From Byssovorax sp. (GTDB taxonomy: Bacteria > Myxococcota_A > Polyangia > Polyangiales > Polyangiaceae), in the NCBI GenBank assembly GCA_025362495.1, contig JANYGI010000011.1, forward strand, positions 1-64,000: a stretch of DNA of 64,000 nt, written 5' to 3'. Below are positions 18,168 to 30,841 of this stretch, in pieces. Every line of letters begins with the position of its first letter. Within the stretch, counting starts at the first letter, position 1. The notes beneath the pieces are model-generated. The model saw nothing but the letters and a program-made list of their open reading frames with translations. It was not told the DNA's origin and did not search any database. Position numbers and translations under genes: made by a program.

Positions 18168-18297
18168 GGTTCGCTCGCTCCCCGCGGGTGCCGTTCCGAC
18201 CAGGATCCCCCGGGAAATCGCGGCGAATGGCGCACGCGGCGAGGGGCCCAGTCGAAGGGCCGCGGACGCTAGCAGGCCCCGCGAAGACGAGCAATGG

Positions 18298-18303
18298 TAT
18301 CCT
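18298..18303 (+). promoter_or_regulatory. Leaderless-type -10 (TATCCT) of the YdcF-like gene
   Basis: TATCCT, 11 bases before the ATG at 18315, which supports that start over the earlier in-frame GTG at 18294. Confidence 0.45.
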
Positions 18304-18314
18304 CGCGGCCCTCG

Positions 18315-18950
18315 ATGCCGGACTCTTCGCCGCGCCGCACGTCCCCGCGCGCCCGCGTCGTCGACCTCGCTGCCCGCGTGCTCGGGTGGCCCCTGGCCTC
18401 CGTCGACGACACCCGCCTGACGGCCGACGCGATCGTGATCCTCGGCGCGCCGATGCGCCGCGACGGCACGCTCTCTCCGCAGGCCGACGAGCGGGTTCGG
18501 GTCGGCGTCGATCTCTTCCGAGCCGGCCTCGCCGCGGTGATCTGCGTCGTCGGCGGTCACTGCCCCGAGCCCCACGACGACGCGCTCGCCGAGGCCGAAG
18601 GCATGGCCCGCCTCGTCCGCGCCCTCGGCGTCCCCGAGAGCGCAATCCGCGTCGACCGCCTCTCGAACAGCACCGTCACCAACGCCGCGCGGGCCGCGGC
18701 GATCTTGCTGCCCGAGGGGCGCCGCCGCGTCTGGCTCGTCACCCAGCCGTTCCATCTTCGCCGCGCGCGCTTCCTCTTTCGTCGCGCCGGCTTCGAGGCG
18801 CTCGGCTGGCACATCGACGGAAGCGTTCAGTACCGACGCCCCGATCTCGCCCTCCGCTGGATCGCCCGCGAGTACGCCGCGTGGGCCCTCGCGCTCGCCC
18901 GCGCAGCCGCCGCGCCGCCCGCAAAACGGGCGCCGGGAGAGCGGATGTAA
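18315..18950 (+). CDS. YdcF-like protein (DUF218)
   Basis: 211 residues from the ATG at 18315. The DUF218 core is clear: ADAIVILGAPMRRDGTLSPQADERVRVGVDLF at the start, VVGGH, SNSTVTNAARAAAIL and VTQPFHLRRARFLFRRAGF. The family adopts a Rossmann-like fold, binds nucleotides or envelope precursors, and includes YdcF, SanA and ElyC. The protein has no convincing membrane helix, unlike ElyC. Substrate is unknown. Confidence 0.8.
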   Translation: MPDSSPRRTSPRARVVDLAARVLGWPLASVDDTRLTADAIVILGAPMRRDGTLSPQADERVRVGVDLFRAGLAAVICVVGGHCPEPHDDALAEAEGMARLVRALGVPESAIRVDRLSNSTVTNAARAAAILLPEGRRRVWLVTQPFHLRRARFLFRRAGFEALGWHIDGSVQYRRPDLALRWIAREYAAWALALARAAAAPPAKRAPGERM

Positions 18951-19068
18951 ACTCACCTCCTCGAAGCCTTTTTGCGCGGGAATACGCAGGCTTTTCACTA
19001 CCCGCGGCGGCGGGTGGATGGTATGTCTGGCGGCCTTCACCGGCATCCAAAACGGAGCTCGTACCCCC

Positions 19069-20553
19069 ATGGCGAATACGCTCGGCCCGCGTAAAGTCCT
19101 CCTGCTCGAGTTCAACGAGATCACGCGCGCGATCATCGATCCGCTGATCGCCAAGGGGAAGCTGCCGAACCTCGCGCGCTTGCTCCGCGAGGGCGCCGTC
19201 GCCGCGCCCACCAGCGTCGATCACGCGCCGCACCTCGATCCGTGGGTCACCTGGGTCACGGTCCACACCGGGGTCGATCGCAGCGTCCACGGCGCCACCG
19301 TGCTCGAGCAAGACTCGACGACGATCACCGCCAAGCGCACCTGGAACTACGCGGAAGAGGCCGGCAAATCGATCGGCGTGTTCGGCAGCATCAGCGCCTA
19401 TCCGCCGCGACCGGCGCCGGGGTTCATCGTGCCTGGCCCGTTCGCGCCCACGTCGGACACCTTCCCTCCGTACCTGTCGCCCGCGCAGGACCTCAATCGC
19501 AAGTACACCCAGGTCCACGGCAAGGCCGCCAAGGAAGACTCGCCACTCGCGATGGCGAAGATGGGAATCAATCTCTTCAAGCTCGGCCTGAAGCCCTCCA
19601 CGTGCGCCACGATCGCCGCGCAGCTCGTCCGCGAGCGTGTCGATCCGAACGTGCGCTGGAGGCGCGTCTCGCTCCAGCCGCTCGTCAATTACGACTTCTT
19701 CGAGAGCCTCTATCGCGCCTACCAGCCCGATTTCGCCACCTGGCACACCAACCACGCGGCGCACTACATGCACCATTACTGGCGCTCGTACGACGACAGT
19801 GGCTTTCTCACGAAAGCCACCGCGGAAGAGAAGGCCAGGACGGGCGGAGCGGTCGAGTTCGGATACACCCTCTGCGACGAGCTGCTCGGCCGCTTCCTCG
19901 CGCTCGTGGGCGACGATACCATCATCGCCGTGGCCACCAGCATGGGCCAGAAGCCCTATGTCGCCGAGATGTTCCCCGACGGCCGCGTCGTCGTCCGCAT
20001 GAAGGATCCGAAGCGGATCCTCGATCTCGTGGGGGCCAGAGGCATCACCGAGATCGTCCCCACCATGGTCCCGCAGTGGAACGTGAAGATCCCCGACCCG
20101 ACCGAGCGCGCCCGGGTCATGGATGTCCTCAACCGTGCTCGCGTCACCAACGCCCCGCGCCCCAACGCCTTCTTCGTCATCGAGACGGGCGAGATCCTCA
20201 CCGTCACGCCGGCGGGGATCGGCAAGCACTCCGGGGAGATTCGCTATTTCTTCCCGGACGACGCGCCCAACGCCGACAAGAACGGATATCTCCTGGAAGA
20301 GCTGTTCGAGCGCGACACCCCGAGCAAGCAAGGCATGCACGATCCGACTGGCCTCTTCATCCTCCATGGAAAGGGCATCCGCCCCGGCGTCGAGATCAAG
20401 AACACCACCAACCTCGACATCGCCCCCACGCTCCTCGCGCTGATGGGGATCCCGGTCCCGGCGATCATGAAGGGCCGTGTCATGAGCGAGGCCTGGGGCG
20501 AGGCGCCCGCTGCACCGGATCGAGCGGAGCGCGTCGACATCAACCTGAGCTGA
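19069..20553 (+). CDS. Alkaline-phosphatase-superfamily protein with degenerate metal sites
   Basis: 494 residues from the ATG at 19069 behind GGAG; an ATG-like upstream start at 19018 is less likely. The overall order matches the type I phosphodiesterase / nucleotide pyrophosphatase family: KLPNLARLLREGAV, VTVHTGVDRSVHGA, a YTLCDELLGRFLAL segment and HDPTGLFILHGKGI near the C-terminus. However the first metal Asp is replaced in LLLEFNEI, the nucleophile Ser/Thr position reads HLDPWVTW, and the canonical SDHG reads TSMG. Only the late His is kept. It may therefore be a catalytically dead binding protein. No signal peptide is evident. Confidence 0.65.
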   Translation: MANTLGPRKVLLLEFNEITRAIIDPLIAKGKLPNLARLLREGAVAAPTSVDHAPHLDPWVTWVTVHTGVDRSVHGATVLEQDSTTITAKRTWNYAEEAGKSIGVFGSISAYPPRPAPGFIVPGPFAPTSDTFPPYLSPAQDLNRKYTQVHGKAAKEDSPLAMAKMGINLFKLGLKPSTCATIAAQLVRERVDPNVRWRRVSLQPLVNYDFFESLYRAYQPDFATWHTNHAAHYMHHYWRSYDDSGFLTKATAEEKARTGGAVEFGYTLCDELLGRFLALVGDDTIIAVATSMGQKPYVAEMFPDGRVVVRMKDPKRILDLVGARGITEIVPTMVPQWNVKIPDPTERARVMDVLNRARVTNAPRPNAFFVIETGEILTVTPAGIGKHSGEIRYFFPDDAPNADKNGYLLEELFERDTPSKQGMHDPTGLFILHGKGIRPGVEIKNTTNLDIAPTLLALMGIPVPAIMKGRVMSEAWGEAPAAPDRAERVDINLS

Positions 20554-20576
20554 AGCCAACCCGAGCGCAGAGGCGA

Positions 20577-20597
20577 AGAGGCCAGTCGACGGCCTCT
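20577..20597. terminator. Hairpin between convergent genes
   Basis: AGAGGCC/GGCCTCT, 7 base pairs with a 7-base loop, in the 76-base gap between the phosphodiesterase-like gene and the FG-GAP gene. Confidence 0.45.
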
Positions 20598-20629
20598 CGT
20601 GCCTTTGCGCCACGGGGCGCCGCGCGTCG

Positions 20630-23122
20630 TCACGGGAGGCAGCCCCGGTTGAACAGCGCGCCGCCTGGCACGAAGAGGTCGACGCGGCCATCGTCGTCGA
20701 GATCCGCCGCCGTGATTGCGCTGCCGAAGCTGCTCTCCTCGTAATCGACGGCGGCCGCGAAGGTGCCATTGCCCTGATTGACCAGCACGGCCACCGAGCT
20801 GTGCTGCGGGGTCGTGACCGCGAGATCGGGCTTCCCGTCGCCGTCGAGATCCGCCACAACCACCTGGGCGGGCTCGCTGCGCACCGGGTAGACGACCGGC
20901 GCGGCGAAGAGGCCATTGCCGAGGTTGTGAACGACGCTCACCGCCCCGAGCTGAGTGACCACCACGAGGTCGGGCCGCGCATCACCGTCGATATCGCGCG
21001 CCACGACCCACAGGGCGTTCGATCCGACGGCGAGCGCGGCGGGAGCGCCGAACGTGCCGTTGCCCAGGTTGAGCAGCACACTGACAGTACCACTCGCACT
21101 ATCGTTGGCGACGGCCAGATCGGGCTTACCATCACCGTCGAGATCGGCCGCGGCGATCGACGTGGCGCCCACGCCGGCGGGGTAGTCGATCGGCGGTCCG
21201 AACGTGCCATTGCCCTGATTGAGCAGCACGCTGACGTTGCCGTCGCCCTTGTTCGCGACGGCGAGATCGGGCTTGCCGTCGCCATCCAGATCCAGCGCGA
21301 CTACCGAGCTCGCGGCGGCGCCGGTCGCGTGGTGGACCGGAGCGCCGAAGGTGCCATTGCCCTGATTGAGCATCACGCTCACCCCGCTGTCGGCAAGGTT
21401 CGACGGGTCGTCATTGGCGATCGCCAGATCGGGCTTGCCGTCGCTATCGAGATCCACGGCCGTGATCGCCCTGGGCCCCGGGCTCGTGGGCTGGAGGACC
21501 TTGGCGGCCAGCGTGCCATTGCCGCTGTTGAGGTTCACGAACACGAAGGCGCTGTTGATGTTCACGCCGACGAAGTCGGGCGTGCCGTCGCCGTCGAGGT
21601 CTGCCGTCGCGATAGATCCCCAGCCGCCGTCGCTTTCCTGATCGTTGATCGCGTTGACGAAGACGCCGTTGCCAGGGTTGATGAGCACGGTCACGTTACC
21701 GGCGTACTTGTTGGTGATCGCGAGGTCGGGCCGCGAATCGCCGTTGAAATCCCCGGCGATCATCGCGCTCGGATACGTGCTCACCGGCGTGGTGAGCGCC
21801 GGGGCGAAGGCGCCATTGCCCAGGCCGAGCAGCGTGATCATCTGGCCGGAGCTGGCAGCGACGACGTCGAGCTTTCCATCGCCGTCGAGGTCGGCCACGG
21901 CGACGGAGGGCGGCCCCACGTTCGAGGGCGTGTCGATTGGAAACACCGTGGGAGGCCCGAACGCGCCGCCGCCGAGGTTGAAGAGCACGCTGACCTCGTC
22001 GAAGCTGCCGCCGAACTGGAGGTTGGTGATGGCGACATCGAGCTTGCCATCGCCGTTGAGATCCCCGAGCGCCATCGCGCCGGCGCCGCTCACGTACGAG
22101 TCGACCGGCGCCCCGAACGCGCCATTGCCCTGGTTGATCAGAGCGCGCAGGCCGTGTGTGTTGAACTGGTCGACCCCCACCAGGAGATCGATCTTCCCGT
22201 CGCCGTCGAGGTCGCCCGCCGCAATCGACGAGGTCTGTGAACCCATGGGATACTGCGTGCTTCCGAGGATGCCATTGCCGAGATTGAGCAGCACGGTCAC
22301 CGCCGTCACGGTCCCTCCCGCGACCGCGAGATCCGTCTTGCCGTCGCCGTTGAAGTCCGCGGCCACGAGGAAGCTCGCTGCGCCGGTGTTGCTCGTCGAA
22401 GCGTTGTAGTGGACCGGGGCGCCGAAGGTGCCGTTTCCCGCGTTGAGGAGCACCTGCACGCCGCCGTTGGCGACCGCGAGATCGAGCTTGCCGTCCCCGT
22501 CGACATCGATCGCCACGACGGCGGTGGCGGGCCCCGTTCCAGTGACGTAGTCGACAGGGGGAGAGAACACGCCGTTGCCCAGGCCGAGGAGCACGCTCAC
22601 GGTCCCGCCGAGGTTCGCGACGGCGAGATCACGCTTGCCGTCGCCGTCGAGATCCGCCGAAATCATCGAGATCGGCTGCACTCCGACCCTCGGTGTCGGC
22701 ACTCCCGGCAACGCGAGCGTGCCAGCGCACGCCGGCGCGACGCATTGACCCAGGTCGTTACACTCGGTGCCTCCCTTGGCGCACGGCGAGCCGGCGGGCA
22801 GCGGCGTGCTCACGGGAGCGCCGTTGAAACAGCCATCGACGGTGCACGGATTCCCATCGTCGACAGGTGTGCAGCCGGCTCCTCCCGTGCCGCCACCGGT
22901 GGACGAGGTCGCCGCCGTCGTTGCGCCGCCGCTCCCGCTCGCGCTCGCGCTCGACGAGGCCGACTGGACCTCGCCGCCACCGGCCCCGCCGGAGCCCGCT
23001 GGTGGCGACGAGCCGCAGCCGAGCGCGCCCCACCCGAGCAACATCAAGAGAATCGATGCGCTGCGGGCGCCGATTGGCGCGTGAAACCGAGGCGACCACC
23101 CGTCGTCCACAAGGCACTTCAT
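20630..23122 (-). CDS. FG-GAP/VCBS-repeat lipoprotein
   Basis: 830 residues. The signal peptide ends at lipobox ALGC, C36. A Gly/Ser/Thr linker follows and then a Cys-rich stretch with eight cysteines (CTPVDDGNPCTVDGC to GQC) of the kind found in myxobacterial MYXO-CTERM and EGF-like proteins. The rest holds 14 copies of a D-x-D/N-G-D calcium-loop repeat (DLDGDGKPDLAVAN and variants) alternating with VLLNxGNGTFGAPV strands. Such repeats build a seven-bladed propeller per seven copies, so two propellers fit. A surface adhesion or binding role is likely. The repeats are similar at DNA level and could recombine. Confidence 0.88.
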   Translation of the reverse strand: MKCLVDDGWSPRFHAPIGARSASILLMLLGWGALGCGSSPPAGSGGAGGGEVQSASSSASASGSGGATTAATSSTGGGTGGAGCTPVDDGNPCTVDGCFNGAPVSTPLPAGSPCAKGGTECNDLGQCVAPACAGTLALPGVPTPRVGVQPISMISADLDGDGKRDLAVANLGGTVSVLLGLGNGVFSPPVDYVTGTGPATAVVAIDVDGDGKLDLAVANGGVQVLLNAGNGTFGAPVHYNASTSNTGAASFLVAADFNGDGKTDLAVAGGTVTAVTVLLNLGNGILGSTQYPMGSQTSSIAAGDLDGDGKIDLLVGVDQFNTHGLRALINQGNGAFGAPVDSYVSGAGAMALGDLNGDGKLDVAITNLQFGGSFDEVSVLFNLGGGAFGPPTVFPIDTPSNVGPPSVAVADLDGDGKLDVVAASSGQMITLLGLGNGAFAPALTTPVSTYPSAMIAGDFNGDSRPDLAITNKYAGNVTVLINPGNGVFVNAINDQESDGGWGSIATADLDGDGTPDFVGVNINSAFVFVNLNSGNGTLAAKVLQPTSPGPRAITAVDLDSDGKPDLAIANDDPSNLADSGVSVMLNQGNGTFGAPVHHATGAAASSVVALDLDGDGKPDLAVANKGDGNVSVLLNQGNGTFGPPIDYPAGVGATSIAAADLDGDGKPDLAVANDSASGTVSVLLNLGNGTFGAPAALAVGSNALWVVARDIDGDARPDLVVVTQLGAVSVVHNLGNGLFAAPVVYPVRSEPAQVVVADLDGDGKPDLAVTTPQHSSVAVLVNQGNGTFAAAVDYEESSFGSAITAADLDDDGRVDLFVPGGALFNRGCLP

Positions 23123-23197
23123 GCTCCTTGCTGGCCGCGCGGACGGTTATCTTCGCGACCGTTTCGAGCGCGCGTTCGTTTTCGAGAACGTTGCGGG

Positions 23198-25492
<2,295 letters not shown>

Positions 25493-25504
25493 CGCGAGCT
25501 GATC

Positions 25505-25510
25505 ACGATA
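25505..25510 (-). promoter_or_regulatory. -10 candidate (TATCGT) proximal to recD2
   Basis: TATCGT on the minus strand, 12 bases before the ATG at 25492. A second candidate, TATATGCT, lies further up in the duplicated element. Confidence 0.4.
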
Positions 25511-25542
25511 GTCGGCGAAGGGGGGCGCTGTCGCATCTGCGC

Positions 25543-25583
25543 GGAGCATATACCCGCTCCCGCTGGGCGGCGGTACGCTCGCG
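25543..25583. promoter_or_regulatory. Bidirectional promoter element, copy A
   Basis: GGAGCATATACCCGCTCCC, ten variable bases, then GGTACGCTCGCG. TATGCT faces the recD2 gene (minus) and TACGCT faces the truncated gene at 25719 (plus), with 23 bases between the two hexamers. Same sequence and spacing as copy B at 30359. Confidence 0.5.
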
Positions 25584-25718
25584 GAGCCCTGGGCTCGACG
25601 CGGCGCGCGCCTGTTCGCCCGCTTGCGCCCTCGCTGCGATCGGCTCTTGCAGGCGGTACCACCGCACCCGGGAGTCGAGGTGCGGGAACCGGACGACTCG
25701 CCTTCTCAGGCCGCTTCG

Positions 25719-26330
25719 ATGAGGTGCCCGACAATCGTCCTCATCGTCGCGCCTGATGCCGCCGTGGCAGCTTGGGCGACGGAGCCAATCGACATCGGCC
25801 TGGGGTGTGGGTCCCTCTCGCCGCGAGTGCTGGGCCCGGCGATCGTGCCCGAAGTGACGGACATGGCCCTCGCCGAGCGTGAAACGGCGCTCGCGATACT
25901 CTCGGCCGTGGCGCATGGCAACGGACCGAACGGGCTCGAGGTTGTTCAGGCCGTGCTGGGCGCGCTCGAGCGCTTCGACCGGGAACACGCAGCGGTGTAC
26001 TTTCAGATCGTTTACAATGCGTTGCGCGAGCCCATGCGGAGGGCGTTGGAGGCACTGATCATGGAACGGCAGGCCGAAGCGAAGGCGACTTTTCCGGTGT
26101 TTGCGCAGCAGCTGATCGACCGCGGCAAGGTCGAAGGCCTTCGTGAAGGCGAGATCAAAGGTAAGCTGGAAGGCGCGCGCGGCGTGCTTCTTCGTCTCGT
26201 GGCGCGCGCTGGAATTGCGTTCAGCGACGACGACCGGGCCCGCGTGCACGCCTGCACCGATCTGGCGACCCTCGATCGGTGGGTCGACAACGTGCTTGGC
26301 GCGAAAACCGCGGCTGACGTGCTCGCCTGA
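25719..26330 (+). CDS. 5'-truncated Rpn/PD-(D/E)XK transposase-like protein
   Basis: 203 residues from the ATG at 25719. The text matches the C-terminal two thirds of a protein family very abundant in Polyangiales genomes (recalled, not searched): CPTIVLIVAPDAAVAAWA, then VTDxxxAxxxxxLAILSAMAHG, a Glu/Gly-rich hinge (EGLREGEIKGKLEGA) and a helical end (ARAGIAFSDDDRARVHACTDLATLDRWVDNVL). The expected N-terminal 80-100 residues carrying the nuclease core are missing and no frame upstream supplies them. It is probably a remnant that may still be translated from the adjacent bidirectional promoter. Confidence 0.6.
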   Translation: MRCPTIVLIVAPDAAVAAWATEPIDIGLGCGSLSPRVLGPAIVPEVTDMALAERETALAILSAVAHGNGPNGLEVVQAVLGALERFDREHAAVYFQIVYNALREPMRRALEALIMERQAEAKATFPVFAQQLIDRGKVEGLREGEIKGKLEGARGVLLRLVARAGIAFSDDDRARVHACTDLATLDRWVDNVLGAKTAADVLA

Positions 26331-26365
26331 TCTCCCCGGGCTCGACGTCGCCCGTCCGGTCGAGA

Positions 26366-26371
26366 TAGGGT
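26366..26371 (+). promoter_or_regulatory. Leaderless-type -10 (TAGGGT) of the BNR lipoprotein gene
   Basis: TAGGGT, seven bases before the ATG at 26379. Confidence 0.5.
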
Positions 26372-26378
26372 GTAGCCC

Positions 26379-27560
26379 ATGAACCCGATCTCCCGCGCTC
26401 GCGCGGCCCTCGCGCCCGCGGCTCTGGCGCTCCTCGCCGCCTGTGCCGACAGCCCCGCGCCGGTGTCGCGTCCGGCCGAGGTCGTCATCGCTCCTCCGCC
26501 GATGCCCGCGATCGCCGAGCCCACGCCGGCTCCTGCGCCGAGTGAGGTGGTCTCCGCGGTCGTCGCCGCGCCGCCTCTCGAGGCGCCCGCTCCGGAGCTC
26601 GACGCGGCGATCACGCCTGGATCGGCCGGCGCGTTCGGCGGCGCTGCCGGCAACGTGCCTCATGGCATCAGCAGCATCTGGGGAGCGGGCAATAGCGTCT
26701 TCGCCGTGGGATCCGGGATGATCCTGCGCTCCGAGGATCGCGGGCTCCACTTTCACATCGTCCCTGGCCCGGGCGGCTCACCCGCGGTGTGGGGACCCTC
26801 GGCAAACGAGGTGTACGTCGCCGGCGACAAGGTCGTGCGCTCGACCGACGGCGGCGCGACGTGGTCTGACATGGGCCGTTTGCCGGGCCACGCCTACGGT
26901 ATCTGGGGTACCGGGCCCGGGGACATTTACGCCGTCGGCGGCGGCGAGCGCCCCTTCGTCGCGCGCTCGATCGACCATGGCACGACCTGGATCGAGCTGA
27001 CCACGCCCATCGCCGCGGGGTGGTTTTACGGGGTCACCGGCACGGGCCCGCGCGAGCTCCTCGTGGTCGGCACCACGCCCTCCGGCGCACCGGCCACGAC
27101 ACCGGGCCTCCCGCCGAAATCGGCGGTCTTCCTGCGCTCGACCGATTCGGGGCGACACTGGACGCGCCTGCCAACGTTCCAGTCGACCACGACCGAGTTC
27201 GAGGAGAGCCGCGGAGCGTGCTTCACCCCGAAAGGGCTCTTCGCCGCCTCGAGCTACGCGCTTCATTTCACGTCGAACCTCGGCCGCACCTGGAAGCTCG
27301 TGAAGGCGGTGAACGCCGAGGTGCTGGCGCTCGGGTGTCGCGGCGACGAGGTCCTCGTCGGAGGCCGCAATCGCAAGCTCTTCGCGTCGCGCGACGGCGG
27401 CGCGACCTGGGTGGAAGATCCCGTTGGTCCCCTCTTCGCCGCGCCCTCGTTCAGCTCCGTGCAAGCCGCGTTCGTCAGCGAAGGAGGCGAGGCCTACGTC
27501 GGCTTCGAAGGCCTCTACGTGGGCCCGAGGCGAGGGAGCCTGTTTCGTCGATCGCCTTGA
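26379..27560 (+). CDS. BNR/Ycf48-like beta-propeller lipoprotein
   Basis: 393 residues. The signal peptide ends at lipobox LAAC with C22. A Pro/Ala linker covers about 23-75. The body has six Asp-box-like repeats: SEDRGLHF, STDGGATW, SIDHGTTW, STDSGRHW, TSNLGRTW and SRDGGATW. This is the pattern of sialidase-fold or Ycf48-type propellers. The catalytic residues of sialidases are not apparent, so a binding or assembly role is more likely than glycosidase activity. Confidence 0.8.
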   Translation: MNPISRARAALAPAALALLAACADSPAPVSRPAEVVIAPPPMPAIAEPTPAPAPSEVVSAVVAAPPLEAPAPELDAAITPGSAGAFGGAAGNVPHGISSIWGAGNSVFAVGSGMILRSEDRGLHFHIVPGPGGSPAVWGPSANEVYVAGDKVVRSTDGGATWSDMGRLPGHAYGIWGTGPGDIYAVGGGERPFVARSIDHGTTWIELTTPIAAGWFYGVTGTGPRELLVVGTTPSGAPATTPGLPPKSAVFLRSTDSGRHWTRLPTFQSTTTEFEESRGACFTPKGLFAASSYALHFTSNLGRTWKLVKAVNAEVLALGCRGDEVLVGGRNRKLFASRDGGATWVEDPVGPLFAAPSFSSVQAAFVSEGGEAYVGFEGLYVGPRRGSLFRRSP

Positions 27561-27624
27561 AATCGAGCCCAGAGCACGGCAGGCCGCACCGGCCGTACCA
27601 CGAGATGGGCCGGGACTTTTGCTG

Positions 27625-27642
27625 TGACGGTGACGACCGTCA
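27625..27642. terminator. Hairpin after the BNR lipoprotein gene
   Basis: TGACGGT/ACCGTCA, 7 base pairs with a 4-base loop, 65 bases past the stop at 27560. No U-tract. Confidence 0.35.
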
Positions 27643-27750
27643 GCTCACCGGGCCTCGATGTTATCGATCTCGCTTTGATGCGGCGCCTACACGCTCAACT
27701 CGGGAGCTCAGGCCAAGGTCGGGGCCGCGGCCGAGCTCTTCGGTCGAGGC

Positions 27751-28782
27751 GTGAGCGGAGACAGCAAGAGCGACGTGAAGAACGCCGCTCACGGCGGTAA
27801 CCCGAGCTCCCGCCACGACTCGAGCATGGATGACGCCGCCGCGCTCAAGGACTGTCAGGTGCCGTTGACGCTGCACCTGCGGCCGATCGACGCCTCCGAG
27901 AACACGAGCCGGCCTCCGCCTCCCGGGCACGGCTTCGCCACCAACGCCTGCGCGCCCGGCGAGGCCCTCGACGCCCACCAGTCGTGCATCAAGATCTCCA
28001 AGGGCCCCACCTACCAGTGCTCGGGCAACGATGTCAACGAGTGCAGGGCCCAGTGCGACAAGGGCAGCCCCCAGAGCTGCGCCATCGCCGGGTACATCTT
28101 CGAGAAGGGCGAGGGCGTGAAGGACGACCTCGATCTCGCTCTCAAGTATTACACCAAGGCCTGCGATGGCCACGAGAACGAGGGCTGCGCGGGGATTGGC
28201 TACATCCTCAGCAAGCGCAAGGACCCGTCGAGCACCGACATCTTCAGGAAGTCGTGCGAGCGAGGGAGCGCGCGCGGGTGCAGCGGTATCGGCCAGCAGC
28301 TGCGCCTCAAGGGCGACTACGGACCCGCGGCGAAGATCTTCGGGCGCGCGTGCAGCCTCGGCTACAAGCGCGCCTGTTTCTACGCCGGAGCCATGCTGAG
28401 CAAGCTCCGCACGAACCCCGAGGATGGCTTCGAGTTCTACCAGATGGCCTGCTACGGCGGCGACGAGCGCGGCTGCCTCGCCGCGGGCGCGATGGAGCTC
28501 GACGGCGTCGGGACGCGGGCCAACCCCGCGGGCAAGGCGCTGATCGAGCGCGGCCGCATCGGCCTCGAGAAGGAGTGCGACGACAGGCACTACGAGTCGT
28601 GCGAGGTGCTGGGCGACTTCTGGATGGGCCAGTTCACCGGCAATACCCCCACGAAGGACAAGGCCCGATCGTACTACGACATCGCCTGCAAAGGCGGCTC
28701 GGAGAACGCCTGCGCCGAGCTCAGGGGCGGCTCGTCGCCCCCCGGATCGGGGCCGCCGCCGAAGCCCAAGGGCAGGCGCTGA
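27751..28782 (+). CDS. Sel1-repeat protein with lost or disrupted N-terminus
   Basis: 343 residues from a GTG at 27751. The same frame continues upstream to a TGA at 27676-27678, reading CGAYTLNSGAQAKVGAAAELF right after the stop. That is how a mature lipoprotein would begin after its lipobox Cys. Only six codons from an ATG precede the TGA, too few for a signal peptide. From residue 70 there are paired-cysteine Sel1-like repeats of about 36 residues (CAIAGYIFEKGEGVKDDLDLALKYYTKAC and so on). The extra disulphide-capable cysteines suggest an exported origin. As it stands the protein would be cytoplasmic or not expressed. Confidence 0.6.
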   Translation: MSGDSKSDVKNAAHGGNPSSRHDSSMDDAAALKDCQVPLTLHLRPIDASENTSRPPPPGHGFATNACAPGEALDAHQSCIKISKGPTYQCSGNDVNECRAQCDKGSPQSCAIAGYIFEKGEGVKDDLDLALKYYTKACDGHENEGCAGIGYILSKRKDPSSTDIFRKSCERGSARGCSGIGQQLRLKGDYGPAAKIFGRACSLGYKRACFYAGAMLSKLRTNPEDGFEFYQMACYGGDERGCLAAGAMELDGVGTRANPAGKALIERGRIGLEKECDDRHYESCEVLGDFWMGQFTGNTPTKDKARSYYDIACKGGSENACAELRGGSSPPGSGPPPKPKGRR

Positions 28783-28803
28783 TTCGCGCGACGAGGGGCC
28801 GCG

Positions 28804-28830
28804 GAGCCTGGTCGTGATCCGGCCAGGCTC
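28804..28830. terminator. Hairpin between convergent Sel1 and GH5 genes
   Basis: GAGCCTGG/CCAGGCTC, 8 base pairs with an 11-base loop. A second inverted repeat GGACGAG/CTCGTCC occupies 28845-28873. Confidence 0.5.
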
Positions 28831-28876
28831 GCCCCGGTGACGACGGACGAGAGAGGCTCTCGCTCGCTCGTCCGGA

Positions 28877-30352
28877 TCAGGCCCCGGTGATCACGATGGT
28901 GTGCGAGCCCGGGCCGCCACAGGGCACCTCGACGATGCCAGTCGCCTGGTCGCGCTCCACGCTCTCGAGCCGCACGCCATCGCACGTCACGATCAGGAAC
29001 TGGTCCGGCTGCCCGGCGGGGACCATGATCCGCGAGGGCGCGGTGATCGCCGGATCACCCGTGAAATGCAGCTCGAACTGCTTCTTCGCCCGGTCGTGCG
29101 CGAAGCTCGTCGGCCAGCCGGCCACGGCCTCCGGCGCGACGCGGGAGACGGCCGTCAGCACCGCTTCTCGGACGTGCCAGCCGAAGTCGGTGCCATCGCC
29201 GCCAAAAAGCCCCCACGAGCCCTGGCTCATCTCCTTCCACAGCCAGAAGAAGCCGCTGGCCTGGTACTGGTCTTCCAGCTCCATCTGCCAGCCGAGGTAG
29301 TTGCTGGCCTGGATCCCCTGCGGATCGTAGCCAAACTCGGTGATCGCCAGCGGAGCGTTCCAGCTCTTGGCCTCGGCGCGAGCTGCCTTGTTGGAGGGCT
29401 CGAGCGTGGCCCGCGTCATCGCCGTACGCTCCTCGTCGGTGCCGCTGAAGGCCAGCGTGTACACGTGGGGCGAGTACACCGTACCCGGCCAGGGATCGCG
29501 CGCGGCGAGCGGCGCGTGGTTGAAGAGGTTCCGCTGCGCGTCGGGCTCGAAGAAGGCGAGGCGGCCGGGATCTGCCGCGCGGATCGCGGTGATCACCTCG
29601 TCGTGCAGGCGATAGAGCTGCGCCGTCTCGTCCGCCAGGGGCTCGTTCATGATCTCGATGCCGATCACCGCGTCGTTGCCCGCGAAGCGCGCGGCCACGT
29701 GGCCGACGGCCGCGGCAAACCGGGTTCGAAGGGCGGCGCCGTCGTCGCTGAAGAACGTGGAGAAGGCCTGGAGCACCTGCGGTGAAGTGCGACGCTTGTC
29801 GAGATCGTTCAGCGGCCCTTCGAGGAGCTTGGTCGGAGCGGGCTTGATCGCCCATAGCGGCGCGCCGTCCTCGCCGATCTCCTTGGAATAGGCGTCCTGG
29901 TGAAAGTCGATCAGCACCCGGGAGTTCGCCGATGAGAGCAGCCCCACGACGGCCGCGACGCGGTCGAGGTAGGCCTCGTCGAAGCCCTTGCCATCGACGG
30001 GCTCGAGGCCGCTCCAGTTGATCGGCAGGCGCAGGGCGTTGAAGCCCATCGCGCGCATCTGCTTGGCGTCGCTCGCCGTGAACGCGGGGATCGGCTCCAG
30101 CTCCTTGCGACCGTCGGTGAAGCTGACGTCGAAGACGCCGTTCACCCGCGCGTTGACGCCGTGGAGGAAGATCACGCGGCCCTGCGCGTCGACGAGCTGC
30201 GCGCATTGTGTGCTCGCCCGACCCGCCGCGAAGCGGGCGTCGGCGCAGGGCGGGCCCGAAGGTCCCTGCGGCGCGGGCTGCGTTTCCGGCGTCGAAGAGC
30301 AAGCGAGGAGGCCAAGAGCGACGAGGCCCGGAGCGAGGTGACGAGGGTGCAT
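28877..30352 (-). CDS. Secreted GH5 hydrolase (endoglycoceramidase/cellulase-like), lipoprotein
   Basis: 491 residues. The signal peptide ends at LLAC, C18, followed by a Pro-rich spacer. The (beta/alpha)8 catalytic domain covers about 50-400 with RLPINWSGLEP, DFHQDAYS, MNEP (E237 as acid/base) and ITEFGYD (E339 as nucleophile). The HQD(A)YS and WLWKE motifs are closest to the endoglycoceramidase-like branch of GH5, so a lipid-linked or beta-glucan glycan is the likely substrate. A small C-terminal beta domain (400-491) follows. It acts at the cell surface or in the periplasm. Confidence 0.85.
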   Translation of the reverse strand: MHPRHLAPGLVALGLLACSSTPETQPAPQGPSGPPCADARFAAGRASTQCAQLVDAQGRVIFLHGVNARVNGVFDVSFTDGRKELEPIPAFTASDAKQMRAMGFNALRLPINWSGLEPVDGKGFDEAYLDRVAAVVGLLSSANSRVLIDFHQDAYSKEIGEDGAPLWAIKPAPTKLLEGPLNDLDKRRTSPQVLQAFSTFFSDDGAALRTRFAAAVGHVAARFAGNDAVIGIEIMNEPLADETAQLYRLHDEVITAIRAADPGRLAFFEPDAQRNLFNHAPLAARDPWPGTVYSPHVYTLAFSGTDEERTAMTRATLEPSNKAARAEAKSWNAPLAITEFGYDPQGIQASNYLGWQMELEDQYQASGFFWLWKEMSQGSWGLFGGDGTDFGWHVREAVLTAVSRVAPEAVAGWPTSFAHDRAKKQFELHFTGDPAITAPSRIMVPAGQPDQFLIVTCDGVRLESVERDQATGIVEVPCGGPGSHTIVITGA

Positions 30353-30358
30353 CGGCGA

Positions 30359-30399
30359 GGAGCATATACCCGCTCCCTTCGAGCCGAGGTACGCTCGCG
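30359..30399. promoter_or_regulatory. Bidirectional promoter element, copy B
   Basis: GGAGCATATACCCGCTCCC, ten variable bases, then GGTACGCTCGCG. TATGCT ends eight bases before the GH5 ATG (minus, 30352) and TACGCT ends five bases before the CoA-binding ATG (plus, 30401). Both genes appear leaderless. Confidence 0.6.
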
Positions 30400-30400
30400 C

Positions 30401-30841
30401 ATGCCTGAGATCGAGAGCTCGACGGGGATCCGCGACGTCCTGTCACGCGCCCGGACCATCGCCGTGCTCGGCGCGCATCACCAGCCGAGCCGCCCCGCGT
30501 TCTACGTCCCCGACTACCTCCACGCGCAGGGCTACCGCGTCGTGCCCGTCAACCCGACCCTCGTCGGCACGACGCTGTGGGGCGAGCCCGTGCGGGCCAC
30601 GCTGGCCGAGATCGGCGAGCCCATCGACATCGTCGACGTCTTTCGCCTCGCCGAGCTGCTCCCCGGTCACCTCGCCGATCTCCTGCAAATGAAGCCCTCG
30701 CCGCGCGTCGTCTGGCTCCAGCTCGGCATCCGCAACGACGCCTTCGCCAGGGCGCTGATCGCCGCCGGGATCGACGTGGTGCAGGACCGCTGCACGCTCG
30801 CCGATCACCGGGCGATGGGCCTCGGCGCGGTGCCGCGATGA
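30401..30841 (+). CDS. CoA-binding-domain protein
   Basis: 146 residues, the usual length of stand-alone CoA_binding_2 proteins. Rossmann-type start TIAVLGAHHQPSRPAFYVPDYLHAQGYRVVPVNP, the central GEPVRATLAEIGEPIDIVDVFR and VVWLQLGI are the family signature. The end (DVVQDRCTLADH) keeps the usual Cys-containing turn. Such proteins bind CoA or related nucleotides; the reaction, if any, is unknown. The stop overlaps the next ATG by four bases. Confidence 0.88.
   Translation: MPEIESSTGIRDVLSRARTIAVLGAHHQPSRPAFYVPDYLHAQGYRVVPVNPTLVGTTLWGEPVRATLAEIGEPIDIVDVFRLAELLPGHLADLLQMKPSPRVVWLQLGIRNDAFARALIAAGIDVVQDRCTLADHRAMGLGAVPR

Follow-up and report, generated by a model that had tools for sequence, protein, structure and literature searches.

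A duplicated, putative divergent promoter element flanking a 4.8-kb segment between recD2 and a CoA-binding gene in Byssovorax sp.

The bacterial bidirectional promoters described by Warman et al. 2021 have divergent transcription start sites (TSSs) 7–25 bp apart, most commonly 18 bp, and overlapping −10 elements (as described in PMC12825309 and PMC10268837). The element considered here, present twice in the 64,000-nucleotide stretch of Byssovorax sp. DNA that we analysed (the window), resembles the promoters of that description in having outward −10 hexamers on both strands of one short pseudo-symmetrical site. Unlike them, it has its hexamers 23 bp apart, and the TSSs predicted from the −10 positions are about 49 bp apart, beyond the 7–25 bp range given for symmetrical bidirectional promoters (PMC10268837). 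Hence by the predicted TSS distance it is a back-to-back promoter pair, outside the bidirectional class as delimited there.

Two other likenesses are of interest. In promoters of the leaderless type, TANNNT is situated just upstream of the start codon, and here the −10s precede the starts of a cellulase gene and a CoA-binding gene by 5–8 nt; the differences are that two such promoters stand back to back, in two copies, and that the recD2 start is located further downstream. The element also resembles a target-site-like duplication, as direct repeats occupy both borders of a segment missing from a relative, but the repeats are far longer (66 bp), their spacer has diverged, and mobile-element machinery was not found. 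Searching the literature for leaderless genes of myxobacteria or for duplicated promoters yielded nothing useful.

The two copies and the search for others

Both copies (Table 1) match the pattern GGAGCATATACCCGCTCCC-N10-GGTACGCTCGCG exactly in both blocks. The preliminary description of this DNA had reported a 19-base and a 12-base block with a 10-base spacer, and outward hexamers TATGCT (minus strand) and TACGCT (plus strand) 23 bases apart; all of this is reproduced in each copy. The pattern gave no match in 100 shuffles, and the two-copy match is not due to chance. The further statement that the copies share nothing more in their neighbourhood needs a small correction. The similarity covers 66 bp, 25533–25598 and 30349–30414, the same 66 bp being delimited by the repeat finder, and 53 of these positions (80%) are identical. 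The left flanks match at 8 of 10 positions and the right flanks at 10 of 15 (anchored p = 0.007 and 0.016, respectively), while the spacer is identical at only 4 of 10. None of the 13 mismatches falls in the blocks, which are identical, in register, at all 31 positions. Given the number of mismatches, the probability of such confinement is 7e-5 for the 66 bp and 5e-5 for the 41 bp, both values having been calculated after the pattern had been seen.

Table 1. Features of the recD2–CoA-binding gene region of the window; promoter elements are predicted
Feature	Coordinates	Strand	Remarks
recD2 helicase gene	23198..25492	-	Pfam HHH_RecD2, SH3_13, OB_YrrC
Copy A	25543..25583	.	41-bp core of the 66-bp repeat at 25533-25598; recD2 side
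Predicted -10 TATGCT, copy A, towards recD2	25545..25550	-	orthologs: CATGCT-N6-GTG
Predicted -10 TACGCT, copy A	25574..25579	+	gene start missing at expected distance
Segment missing from the recD2–CoA-binding gene interval of Minicystis rosea	25584..30358	.	4,775 bp
Rpn/transposase-like ORF	25719..26330	+	about 98 N-terminal residues missing by comparison with a paralog of 82% identity in the same genome
BNR-repeat protein gene	26379..27560	+	
Sel1-repeat protein ORF	27751..28782	+	
GH5 cellulase-like lipoprotein gene	28877..30352	-	
Copy B	30359..30399	.	41-bp core of the 66-bp repeat at 30349-30414; between cellulase and CoA-binding genes
Predicted -10 TATGCT, copy B, towards cellulase	30361..30366	-	8 nt before cellulase ATG
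Predicted -10 TACGCT, copy B, towards CoA-binding gene	30390..30395	+	5 nt before its ATG
CoA_binding_2 (YccU-like) gene	30401..30841	+	Pfam PF13380; 67% identical to Minicystis protein

In the 10.8-Mb genome, only copies A and B match the 18-base core well at a cut-off of three mismatches: the seven other matches all have exactly three, and the reversed control gives four matches. None of 96 relatives has the whole element, even when three mismatches are allowed, and a looser pattern retrieved no additional copies. The preliminary description had proposed two reasons for the duplication, a site of a shared regulator and the spread of a small repeat, together with this pattern search of the genome and related species; as the search produced zero copies beyond A and B, it lends support to neither of them.

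A small mobile or dispersed repeat would account for two copies with identical blocks 4.8 kb apart. However, a dispersed repeat or miniature mobile element is expected in multiple copies, and there are exactly two in 10.8 Mb; neither terminal repeats nor a transposase tied to the copies were found, and the 18-mer of the element has no exact match in viral contigs (IMG/VR). We regard this explanation as highly improbable. A viral origin of the element was discarded on the same IMG/VR result.

The blocks could alternatively be operators of a shared regulator, either as a dyad GGAGC-N8-GCTCC or as inverted half sites GAGCATA...TACGCTC. This would explain the 31 identical bases and the confinement of mismatches outside the blocks, and the conserved bases outnumber those required by a sigma promoter. 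On the other hand, a regulon operator should have further sites upstream of other genes, and there is no third good site (up to three mismatches) in the genome and none in the 96 relatives. Moreover, the genes involved have no evident common function, and the palindromy mostly follows from the two outward TAYGCT −10s. Such a regulator is therefore improbable.

The intervening segment and the arrangement in Minicystis rosea

The closest relative is Minicystis rosea, with 72% identity for RecD2 and 67% for the CoA-binding protein. Its recD2 (9891661, plus strand) and CoA-binding gene (9891453, minus strand) are direct divergent neighbours whose starts are about 200 bp apart. In the blastn comparison with the window the two genes are colinear, nothing is aligned for 25355–30394, and the synteny stops past the CoA-binding gene. 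In the window the same genes are 4.8 kb apart, and copies A and B are the borders of the segment that separates them. The 41-bp element is not recognisable in the Minicystis recD2–CoA intergenic region (alignment p 0.6–0.98), and thus the link to an ancestral region rests on synteny and on short −10/start matches. The same intergenic region (L074:5498-5590) contains a long inverted repeat, GATCACATCGC ... GCGATGTGATGT, spotted by eye and not seen in the window. The synteny has a second break on the other side of recD2, at 18187–23255 (about 5 kb), holding two ORFs, one of which encodes an FG-GAP repeat protein.

Since the neighbour arrangement is known from one genome only, Minicystis, it does not prove the polarity. 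Gene content speaks for insertion in the present lineage over deletion in Minicystis: one ORF of the segment is 5'-truncated, the BNR gene has no match in Minicystis at E 1e-10, and the cellulase has no ortholog there, the best match being a paralog at 29%. The truncated ORF, which we take to be Rpn-like by resemblance, has no Pfam hit; its family has 26 matches in the genome, several of them partial. Derivation of the segment from another part of the genome was considered and discarded, as sizeable paralogs exist only for this ORF, and so was a foreign origin by composition, the GC content of 67–71% being equal to that of the surroundings.

Direct repeats flanking a segment that is missing in a relative could also be the attL and attR sites of an integrated element. 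However, the crossover core of site-specific recombination should be identical, whereas here the middle 10 bp differ, and Pfam detects no integrase domain in the four ORFs of the segment. We consider att sites very unlikely.

Predicted −10 elements and gene starts

Leaderless-type starts are frequent across the window (1–64000). TANNNT occurs 4–9 nt upstream of gene starts at 0.054 per position, compared with 0.0028 further upstream, an approximately 19-fold enrichment at 34 likely starts, the list being approximate and chosen by codon-position GC. The hexamers of copy B fit this style, with TATGCT-N8-ATG on one side and TACGCT-N5-ATG on the other. CATGCT-N6-GTG is conserved ahead of the recD2 orthologs of Minicystis, Sorangium species and one further genus, and in Sorangium and Polyangium the ATG of the CoA-binding homologs is preceded at 6–7 nt by TACACT or TAGGCT (TANNCT-N6/7-ATG). 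The outward −10s look real, and the element was probably the promoter of two adjacent genes pointing away from each other. A divergent, back-to-back promoter region should have an outward −10 at a plausible distance from each gene; copy B has both, and copy A only the one towards recD2, with a longer leader. The preliminary name, a duplicated bidirectional promoter element, is thus supported by position and by the ortholog-conserved −10s, from which we infer promoter activity of the copies; the two reasons proposed for it are not.

In copy A the recD2 start lies 44 nt downstream of the ATG at the leaderless position. That ATG opens a 15-codon ORF on the minus strand (25489–25536, MRQRPPSPTIVISSR), 8 nt after TATGCT. 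The TGA of this ORF overlaps the recD2 ATG as ATGA, which suggests translational coupling; alternatively, the G6 run at 25520–25525 may contain a one-base error. The right flank of copy A, although similar to the CoA-binding start region of copy B at 10 of 15 positions, lacks the ATG.

In a reverse derivation, the divergent cellulase/CoA-binding promoter (copy B, with both gene starts) came first, and copy A arose from it as an incomplete duplicate placed ahead of recD2; the promoter of recD2 may then be a different one, TATCGT, immediately before its ATG. In agreement with this, the ATG of copy A is 8 nt from TATGCT, exactly as the cellulase ATG in copy B, with the 8 of 10 match situated there, and the recD2 reading frame begins only 44 nt further on. 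However, TATGCTCCG of copy A agrees with the −10 that is conserved ahead of recD2 in other genera, the cellulase–CoA pair was not found in any relative, and a functionless copy should not hold 31 of 31 bases while its spacer and flanks diverge. Overall this derivation is unlikely. One candidate cellulase–CoA pair, suggested by a weak blastn hit in genome G050, was discarded, as the neighbour translates to another protein.

Origin of the two copies

The synteny with Minicystis and the position of the copies at the segment borders explain the pair as one divergent promoter region duplicated. We think it rather likely that both copies descend from a divergent, leaderless-type promoter region between recD2 and the CoA-binding gene, duplicated around the inserted segment. 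In favour of this are also the in-register identity of the blocks at the two ends of the segment, the −10s conserved in orthologs, and the match of the right flank of copy A to the CoA-binding start region. The ancestral state would be a single such region, as in Minicystis rosea; the 4.8-kb segment would have come between the two genes in this lineage, so that each border retains about 66 bp of the formerly shared sequence. The outer halves would serve the original genes, the minus-strand half of copy A recD2 and the plus-strand half of copy B the CoA-binding gene, whereas the inner minus-strand half of copy B would drive the cellulase, which would thus have acquired a copied recD2-type promoter. 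The housekeeping sigma factor would probably direct transcription from the outward TAYGCT −10 elements, and transcripts would begin at the start codon or beside it. Divergence would have been confined to the spacer and flanks, both blocks being kept, as we infer, by purifying selection.

Besides the failure to recognise the element in the Minicystis intergenic region, further observations count against duplication of the promoter region: the flank similarity is weak, recD2 starts further downstream than a leaderless gene would, and, its weakest point, the plus-strand block of copy A is conserved at 12 of 12 positions with no gene start at the expected place. The fuller version, that arrival of the segment duplicated a complete divergent promoter, so that the host genes kept theirs, the cellulase captured a promoter with its start-codon context, and the blocks have since been held identical by selection, is possible but distinctly tentative.

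The element is a tidy yet fairly ordinary genome rearrangement, and it fits the ordinary leaderless style frequent in the window. Under the duplication of an ancestral promoter region, several kilobases of extra genes can come between two divergent genes while each keeps its promoter, and the two copies provide a natural test of the constraint on individual promoter bases.
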